DNA of 64,000 bases from positions 62,001-126,000 of the forward strand of contig JAENWT010000006.1 in the NCBI GenBank assembly GCA_016650125.1, read 5' to 3'. The translations under genes and the position numbers were made by a program. Positions 45,033 through 48,078 of the stretch are shown here, one piece after another (within the stretch, counting starts at the first letter, position 1; each line of letters begins with the position of its first letter). The stretch is from Thermoleophilia bacterium. Its GTDB lineage: Bacteria; Actinomycetota; Thermoleophilia; Solirubrobacterales; 70-9. Under the pieces are notes generated by a model. The model was not told the origin of the DNA, did no database searches, and was given only the letters and a program-made list of their open reading frames with translations.

Positions 45033-45320
45033 ATGGAAGCGAGCAACGATCTCAGGGACCAGGCGGTCAAGAACCTCAAGGCCAAGCAGTCATTCAAGTT
45101 CCAGGTGATCACCTGGGCGGGCGTCAGCATCTTCCTCATCGCGATTTGGGCGATCGCTGATCGCGGCTTCTTCTGGCCAATAATCCCGATCGCCGCATGG
45201 GGCCTCTTCGGACTGGTGCCGCAGGGCTGGCGGTTGTACCACGGCGATGGAATGAACGAAGAACAGATCCAGAAGGAAATGGACCGTATTAACAGCGATC
45301 TGGGCAGCGGCTCAAGCTGA
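45033..45320 (+). CDS. Small 2TM-domain membrane protein
   Basis: The product is 95 aa. Two hydrophobic segments (FQVITWAGVSIFLIAIWAIA and FFWPIIPIAAWGLFGLV) are joined by a short turn, with charged ends, matching the 2TM domain family (PF13239). The ATG at 45033 has GGAGG five bases upstream; a GTG start at 45021 is possible but would put the Shine-Dalgarno sequence inside the gene. The role is unknown. Confidence 0.8.
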   Translation: MEASNDLRDQAVKNLKAKQSFKFQVITWAGVSIFLIAIWAIADRGFFWPIIPIAAWGLFGLVPQGWRLYHGDGMNEEQIQKEMDRINSDLGSGSS

Positions 45321-45599
45321 GCCCAACCCTGGTTTTCGGTCTACCGCGGGGGCGGGCAAAACTGGAATCAGGAGAACTAGCCCCTGGTGTTTTGCCCTAT
45401 CTCCGCCATCAAAACTTTGCATCAGGCACCGAATTTGCCTTACAAGCAATCCGGTGTTTGCTGCAGTGAATGGCCTACCCGTGAGCGGTACCGGGTCAAG
45501 TCAAATCGCTTCACCGGCTCGCTTACTTCTCGCCAGCCACGCCCAGGACGTCCCCGGACACCACCCGCTTGCGTTCTTTGAACGGCAGAGCACCGGGAG

Positions 45600-45669
45600 C
45601 CCGCAAAGAGGGAACTGATCGGGATTGTGCCGACTATTTCGGCACAATCCCGATCGGTTCGCTTGCGGG
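45600..45669. repeat. Long hairpin, 21-bp stem plus outer 7-bp stem
   Basis: Arms 45613-45633 and 45639-45659 pair over 21 positions with a single G-T wobble around the loop CTATT. An outer pair CCCGCAA (45600-45606) and TTGCGGG (45663-45669) extends it. It contains GATCGGGATTGTGCC in one arm. This is far longer than a typical terminator. Confidence 0.7.
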
Positions 45670-45689
45670 TTCGAAGTGACCGGGATCGA

Positions 45690-45719
45690 GGCCACATAGT
45701 GGCCCTTATCCGGGCCACT
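45690..45719. repeat. Overlapping short hairpins GGCCAC/GTGGCC and AGTGGCCC/GGGCCACT
   Basis: GGCCAC-ATA-GTGGCC (45690-45704) overlaps AGTGGCCC-TTATCC-GGGCCACT (45698-45719). The two are mutually exclusive foldings of the same segment, as in a switch or attenuator, though nothing else supports that function. Confidence 0.5.
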
Positions 45720-45803
45720 TCTCCGAAATCACCCCGAAAAACGGCGACCCGAGGCTCACGATCTCAGCCTTTCCGACAGCCTCCCGTAAGTGGTGCACGG
45801 GGG

Positions 45804-45913
45804 CTGCCTGCGAGCGGCTGGCGAGGAGTAAAGGCAGGGAATGACCGCGATCGTACCCACGTACTTGAGCTGTCATTCCCTGCCGTCGACGAAGCCAGGC
45901 GCCGCGCAGGCAG
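45804..45913. repeat. Imperfect 42-bp inverted repeat downstream of glnN
   Basis: Arm 45804-45845 pairs with 45872-45913. The inner 13 bp are perfect (GGCAGGGAATGAC with GTCATTCCCTGCC), the outer CTGCCTGCG/CGCGCAGGCAG ends pair well, and the middle is imperfect. The loop is 26 nt. It starts 21 nt past the glnN stop on the minus strand, so it could protect or end that mRNA. Confidence 0.6.
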
Positions 45914-45933
45914 TTTCCGGGCGCCGCTTGCCT

Positions 45934-48078
45934 TTACTTGATGAAGAGCATCTCCGCGTACTTCGGCAGGGGCCAGAACTCGTCGGCGACTATGCGCTCG
46001 AGCTTGTCGGCGATCACGCGAACGTCGTGCATCGCGGCGAGCTGCTTGTCGCGGGCATACTTGGCCAGCTCCATGCCCTCTTCGAGGCCCTCCGGGTACT
46101 GGTTGACCTCTTCGAGAGTCCTGGTCTTCTCGATCAGGGCCTCGGCCAGAGGACGGGCCTCCGAGTCGAGGGTCGCCATCGCCGAGCTCTCGGCCAGCAC
46201 CAGGTGTTTGAGGGCGGCGGGGATGATCATCGTACGGGCGATCGAGGAAGCGGTCTCCGCTTCGATGTTCGCGCCCATCGCGTACTGCTCGACCCAGACT
46301 TCGTAACGCGCTTCGAGCTCACGCTCGGAGAGCACGTTGTACTTGTCGAAGGTGTCGATCGTTGACGGCGAGATGATCTCGGGCAGGGCGTCGACCGTGG
46401 TCTTGAGATTCTTGAGGCCGCGGCTGGTCGCCTCGGTCTGCCACTCGTCCGAGTAGCCGTCGCCGTCGAAACAGATCTGCCGGTTGGCCAGGTAGCTCTC
46501 CTTGACCACCGCGATCACGTCAGCGGCGAGGTCGCCCGAGTTCAGGGCCTCCAGCTTGGTGGCCAGTTCGTCGATGGCCTCCGCGGTAATCGCGTTGAGC
46601 ACCGTGTTGGTGAAGGCGAGCGACATGCTCGACCCGACCGCCCGGAACTCGAACCGGTTACCGGTGAAGGCGAACGGCGAGGTGCGATTGCGGTCTCCGC
46701 CGTCCATCGGCAGCGGCGGCAGCGCCACGGCGCCGAGGTCGAGGGTGGCGTCGGGGGTGTGGGGGTCGCCTTCGCCGGCCGCGATCGTCTCAAAGACCTT
46801 CTCGAGCTCGGCGCCGAGGAAGATCGAGATGATCGCCGGCGGCGCTTCGTTGGCGCCGAGGCGATGGTCCTGCCCGAGGTTGCCGACCGCGGCCCGCAGC
46901 AGGCCCTGATGCTTGTTGACGGCCTGAATTACGGCGGCGCAGAAGAACAGGAAGTTCAGGTTCTCCGCCGGAGTGTCACCGGGGTCGAGCAGGTTGTGGC
47001 CCGTGTCGGTGCCCATCGACCAGTTGTTGTGCTTGCCGGAACCGTTGATGCCGGCGAACGGCTTCTCGTGGAGGAGGCAGACGAGGCCGTACTTGCGGGC
47101 CTTGTTCTGCATGACCTGCATGGTCAGCTGCTGGTGGTCGGAGCCGATGTTGGAGTTCTCGAACATCGGGGCGATCTCGTACTGCGCCGGGGCCACTTCG
47201 TTGTGGCGGGTCGTGATCGGTACGCCGAGCCTGGACAGTTCATTCTCGAGATCCATCATGTAGGCGAGCACGCGCTCCGGAATCGCTCCGAAGTAGTGGT
47301 CGTCGAGCTCCTGGCCCTTGGCCGGCTCCGATCCGAAGAGTGTGCGGCCGGTGGTGATGAGATCAGGACGTGCGTAGTAGTACTGCTCGTCGATCAGGAA
47401 GTACTCCTGCTCGGGACCGACCGATGTCGTGACCCGCTTGGCGTCGTCCTCGCCGAGCAGCTTGAGAGCCTTGATCGCGGAGCGCGACAGCGCGTCCATC
47501 GAGCGCAGCAGAGGGATCTTGGCGTCGAGCGCCTCACCGGTCCATGACGCAAATGCCGTCGGGATGCAGAGGAGCTTCCCGTTCGGGTTGTCCATGAGGA
47601 AAGCCGGGCTGGTCGGGTCCCAGGCGGTGTAGCCGCGGGCCTCGAAGGTGGCCCTGATGCCGCCCGAAGGGAACGATGATGCGTCCGGCTCGCCCTGGAT
47701 CAGGTTCGAACCCTTGAACCTGGCGACCGTTCCGCCGTCGCCGGTCGGCTTGAAGAAGGAGTCGTGCTTCTCGGCCGTGAGGTTGGTCAGGGGCTGGAAG
47801 ACGTGGGTGTAATGGGTGGCGCCGTTCTCGAGCGCCCAGTCCTTCATCGCCGCCGCGACCGCATCGGCCAGCTCGACGTCGAGGGCCTCTCCGTGTTCGA
47901 GCGTGCCGACGAGGCGGGCGAAAACGTCTTCGGGGAGCCGTTCGCGCTGGGTGGCGATGTTGAAGACGTTCTCCCCGAAGACGAGGTTCTCGTCCAGGGT
48001 GAGATCGACGGGGCGCATCGAAGAGCCATTTCCGGCCCACTGTGCGGCGGTTACGTTCTGCTGGCGGATCGGGGTCAT
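45934..48078 (-). CDS. glnN: Glutamine synthetase type III
   Basis: The product is 714 aa, about 250 longer than type I or II enzymes. The GSIII signature regions are present: [15 protein letters not shown] and EKHDSFF near residues 75-100, [45 protein letters not shown] and [20 protein letters not shown]. It makes glutamine from glutamate and ammonia with ATP. It likely works with the amt-glnK pair at 27-29 kb. The gene stands alone; the start at 48078 lies in a 238-bp divergent region shared with the M23 gene. Confidence 0.95.

Follow-up and report, generated by a model that had tools for sequence, protein, structure and literature searches.

What fills the 613 bp, devoid of any convincing gene, that separate the stops of two convergent genes in a 64,000-nucleotide stretch of a Thermoleophilia bacterium genome (hereafter the window)? 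The genes encode a 2TM-domain protein and a type III glutamine synthetase (GlnN). An earlier note on this DNA had described a gene-free island with three large inverted-repeat systems, and guessed at a structured non-coding RNA, a miniature element or a 3′ regulatory region for glnN. The island indeed lacks a convincing gene and the three systems are present (H, D and C in Table 1), folding far more stably than dinucleotide shuffles, with z-scores of -8.1 for the whole island, -10.7 for 45590-45725 (H plus D) and -6.4 for 45788-45933 (the long repeat, C). Two components had been overlooked, namely unit A, which folds with a z-score of only -1.9 against such shuffles, and a leftover inverted half-copy of the long repeat. 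The island is a mosaic of dispersed hairpin repeats, consisting of A, then the inverted C remnant with H and D, and finally C. Unit A starts 15 nt beyond the stop of the 2TM-domain gene, the arms of H comprise an outer 10 bp and an inner 25 bp, spacer E holds a degenerate short hairpin followed by CCTTTCC, and the TAA stop of glnN lies 3-4 nt from the 3′ end of C. A known Rfam RNA was rejected as an identity for any of this, since a search of the window against Rfam gave nothing above the gathering threshold (the sub-threshold matches being mostly eukaryotic miRNA hairpins); a tRNA search likewise returned nothing above threshold.

Table 1. Modules of the island and the two genes that enclose it, in window coordinates
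Feature	Position	Strand	Basis or copies
2TM-domain protein gene, left neighbour	45033..45320	+	ORF, gene caller, Pfam PF13239 E 6e-11
Unit A, two-hairpin dispersed repeat, ~156 bp	45336..45491	+	~45 copies, window's genome only
Inverted C-family remnant, 5′ half in its own orientation	~45498..45566	-	alignments; weak model hit L136 1025-1130
Hairpin H (double stem)	45597..45672	not assigned	5 to 7 further copies
Hairpin module D, two mutually exclusive short hairpins	45671..45724	not assigned	about a dozen further copies
Spacer E	45725..45787	+	partly common to C copies in L065, L069
Unit C, 143-bp rod-like hairpin, type copy of an order-wide family	45788..45930	+ (structured strand)	
glnN, type III glutamine synthetase, right neighbour	45934..48078	-	ORF; Pfam GSIII_N E 5e-74

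The guess at a miniature element has fared best, as all modules are dispersed repeats and four relatives have these two genes side by side without the island. All genomes compared are metagenome assemblies, and the closest GlnN proteins share about 75% identity with that of the window. The four relatives (G012, G013, G001 and G006) keep the same convergent gene pair with a spacer of roughly 75-150 nt, as against 613 bp in the window, which contains an ordinary terminator-type hairpin and no match to C. A fifth genome, G014, has a different C-family copy that begins directly after the glnN stop. The middle part of the mosaic, inverted C plus H plus D, is itself repeated elsewhere as a block of about 300 bp (L064 3111-3404, L076 3519-3814, L059 2911-3137), of which the window carries a version with half its C gone; complete inverted C units occupy the place of the remnant in L064, L076, L059 and L055.

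The earlier note had proposed looking for copies elsewhere in the genome, and the 2.83-Mb assembly to which the window belongs yielded 96 matches in more than 35 islands, many of them at contig ends. Copies of A, C, H or D often lie within a few hundred bases of such ends in G000 (C3, C5, C6, C16, C17, C20, C26, C37). Crowded there, the repeats have probably broken the assembly and been under-counted. Covariance models find about 25 copies of C and about 45 of A in the window's genome, which, together with the covariation described below, contradicts the possibility, raised in the earlier note, of an unconserved sequence with copies only here. The two families differ in their reach. Unit A was found in none of 17 other genomes of the genus and therefore looks like a species-specific expansion, whereas C is present in 14 of the 18 genus genomes and extends to several other genera of the family and, more weakly, across the order, 45 of 232 genomes in all; beyond the order, three genomes sampled from the class also carry it. 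Few candidates were scored per genome in these wide searches, and their copy counts are lower bounds. An exact-pattern scan of GTDB genomes added one true relative, the Actinomycetota MAG JAUPTY010000004.1 (L134) with two copies of C, and a match in an alphaproteobacterial MAG (L135) that was rejected as chance in apparently coding DNA; the same type of scan of viral contigs gave none.

Unit C measures 138-143 bp in nearly all copies and folds into a rod, in which a lower stem of about 30 bp leads to an internal loop, above which the stem is variable and ends in a conserved apical hairpin. The internal loop is conserved in sequence on both sides (CRAGGA / GACGAAG), and in other genera reads CAAGGACGCAGG / CCGAGGACGCCG. 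Covariation in relatives, another check that had been proposed, is very strong: two-sided changes affect 47 of the 57 consensus pairs among 81 copies. Pairing is retained in 87.2% of cells in the C alignment compared with 70.0% in shuffles (0 of 500 reach 87.2%) and at most 46% in slid controls, percentages that lean upward because the model behind the alignment came from some of the same copies, whose folds also supplied the structure. Folding each copy by itself is independent of that alignment, and here all 96 copies of C are more stable on the C strand than on its complement when each strand is folded alone (mean 20 kcal/mol), with 535 G-U pairs on the C strand as opposed to 135 on the complement in the same 96 copies. 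On the consensus pairs, in a consensus itself drawn on the C strand, GT exceeds AC in 14 of 14 genomes; this count by genome is the safer statistic for strand bias because copies within one genome are related.

The placement of C is as asymmetric as its fold. In 50 copies the 3′ end lies -5 to 12 nt from the stop codon of a gene on the opposite strand, while the 5′ end does so in only four, and an ORF stop faces C near its 3′ end in 91 of 113 copies. According to gene calls from a simple codon-usage caller written for this analysis, the 50 stops beside the 3′ end comprise 32 TAG, 10 TAA and 8 TGA, compared with 117 TAG, 41 TAA and 270 TGA among 428 stops of other genes called in the same loci; TAG or TAA thus accounts for 42/50 at C-abutted stops against 158/428 elsewhere (p 1.4e-10 for TAA/TAG versus TGA). 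The TAG stops beside C stand in the contexts CTAG (19), GTAG (7), TTAG (5) and ATAG (1), with CTAG in excess (p 0.0012). Regulation of glnN as the specific function of the island, the third of the earlier guesses, is rejected because copies come after many unrelated genes. Unit A shows a comparable tendency: read by eye, it often begins 1-19 nt beyond the stop of a gene that runs in its own direction.

These observations suggest that the island probably represents mobile hairpin units piled up between convergent genes, with C a REP/MITE-like palindromic family spread as a predicted folded single strand. Copies 95-99% identical share their identity across the hairpin unit and sit in unrelated flanks (for example the window versus L074, or L108 versus L033), and C shows no target-site duplication, the length of shared flank being 1.69 as against 1.85 in shuffles. 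Unit C is a discrete 143-bp unit of conserved structure and pronounced strand asymmetry, placed after stop codons among unrelated flanks and without duplication of its target. In the mechanism we propose, C would spread as a folded single strand, the one antisense to the abutted gene, and a putative recombinase or transposase would recognise this strand and insert C next to a YTAR-type target. Most surviving insertions would be those at stop codons, where an insertion leaves the gene intact; a YTAR-type target combined with such survival would explain both the orientation of C and its choice of stop codon. Once in place, each copy would form a hairpin in the 3′ UTR of the gene beside it and might thereby affect mRNA stability or translation termination. 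In E. coli, ribosome stalling has been reported for REPs located within 15 nt of a stop (PMC12306157).

A different reading makes C a functional RNA element, be it a 3′-UTR stabiliser, a barrier to antisense transcription or a protein-binding RNA, that spread through its usefulness to the abutted genes. The guess at a structured non-coding RNA stood up in so far as the covariation is of RNA grade and accompanied by conserved internal loops, G-U rather than A-C pairs prevail on one strand, and the spacing from stop codons is fixed. Furthermore, copies recur in different genomes after the genes for ribosomal protein S7, DUF47/PhoU-type proteins, MraY and an Era-like GTPase; such copies at orthologous places fit old insertions and also a retained function. 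The guess gave way where it requires a transcript: the abutted gene runs antisense to the selected strand, the gene on the other side points the right way to transcribe that strand in only about 49 of 86 cases, and no common promoter-like sequence was found in the flanks of C copies. For these reasons the strand bias is not most easily explained by a transcribed RNA, and from that bias only, we infer folded single-stranded DNA recognised by a recombinase as the easiest explanation. The abutted genes are, moreover, mostly unrelated, with 64 singletons, and the type of stop should be irrelevant to a UTR element, yet TAA and TAG are strongly favoured. On balance we consider a functional RNA unlikely. 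C-family units end at or overlap the ribosomal protein S7 stop in three genomes of other genera (L199 1501-1620, L209 845-964, L120 646-771).

If C is a mobile family, does it belong to a known one? Its behaviour is REP/BIME/MITE-like, yet it fails the defining features of RAYT-driven REPs, classical MITEs, attC sites, terminators and Rfam RNAs. GTAG REPs and BIMEs associated with RAYTs are multi-copy palindromes located 3′ of coding regions, 20-40 bp in size and structured on one strand (PMC3733652, PMC2817692). Like them, C is a multi-copy palindrome downstream of genes that forms mosaic units and is structured on one strand, many of its copies lie within 15 nt of a stop, and target duplication is absent. 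Unlike them, it extends over 143 bp instead of 20-40 bp, contains conserved internal loops, lacks an invariant GTAG tag (the abutting stops are varied) and resides, in the window, in a genome without a RAYT/Y1 gene. As a precedent for palindromes that do without a transposase, the CGTC REPs come closest, having no dedicated one (PMC3733652); C differs from these in its end sequences (GGGTGG/AAGTGG and CCGCCC/CCGCTT), which carry no CGTC tag, in its much greater length, in its one-way placement at stops and in phylum. With MITE-type repeats such as ERIC, BOX, bcr1 and NEMIS it shares a dispersed, non-coding nature, a size of 100-200 bp, strong hairpins and modular combinations, and it departs from them in the absence of target duplication, the strong compensatory change and the strand asymmetry.

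Integron attC sites conserve structure over sequence, and the strand that folds is the antisense one with respect to the gene that ends just before them. C likewise keeps structure rather than sequence and presents a one-strand hairpin just past a stop with an antisense fold, whereas its YTAR beside the hairpin foot and lack of target duplication recall IS200/IS605 elements and REPs. That C is an attC-type site, a non-autonomous IS200/IS605 element or a RAYT-driven REP is nevertheless very improbable, and membership of these named families is largely refuted. Copies of C are scattered over the chromosome and not gathered in one cassette array, and the end sequences of more than 90 of them contain neither R nor L boxes (RYYYAAC/GTTRRRY). 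Enzymes were sought in the 18 genus genomes. The Y1 transposase (IS200/RAYT, PF01797) is missing in 17 of them, the window's included; it was found in G003 only, which is also the only one with a reverse transcriptase (PF00078) and holds a single partial copy of C. No integron integrase (TIGR02249) scored above the cut-off in any of the 18, and the generic matches that did appear also turned up in all 14 control genomes. With a reverse transcriptase in just one of 18 genomes, a group II intron or other retroelement was rejected as well.

Ordinary (bidirectional) termination of transcription from the two convergent genes is scarcely credible as the role of the hairpins despite their location after stop codons, the 39 copies of C between convergent genes and the ordinary terminator-type hairpin of relatives at the glnN spacer, given that 42 classified copies lie between co-directional genes, that the 3′ flanks of C consist of stop codons and GC-rich sequence without a consistent T-run, and that the size, conserved loops and strand asymmetry of C are unnecessary for a terminator.

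Returning to C as a mobile family, we tentatively raise a more specific proposal, which we hold to be possible if doubtful: C may be an undescribed class of non-autonomous single-strand-hairpin element whose mover lies outside the Y1, reverse transcriptase and integron integrase families and places it in one orientation beside YTAR, in practice at TAG stops. A literature search of mostly open-access papers found reviews of REPs and no description of the C family. What is known of REP-like repeats concerns mainly short palindromes linked to RAYTs; the C family, found in an actinomycete order and without the expected enzyme, is several-fold larger and combines RNA-grade covariation and a one-strand fold with a TAG/TAA bias and an orientation that is almost one-way. 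The search for a mobilising enzyme can be put directly to the test with the alignment and covariance model of the family, and its copies provide a natural set of genes with very large hairpins right after their stops.

Several smaller features were noted along the way. In G014, two to three C units follow each other head to tail, about 0-9 nt apart (L159 3462-3906, L167 3012-3303, L175 2744-3019, L166 2995-3289). Several relatives (L138-L140, L142-L144) have a short conserved hairpin motif, CCTCGGGGGAAACGAGGAAGC, just ahead of the glnN terminator; this motif is missing from the glnN spacer of the window. Finally, an unrelated palindromic repeat, GTTCGCTCGCTTGATGACCATCATCTGAACACAATCGTTCTGATGTTCATCAAGTGA, stands in tandem after the glnN stop of G015 (L143, first 167 bases), so that several families of repeats make use of the place behind a stop.
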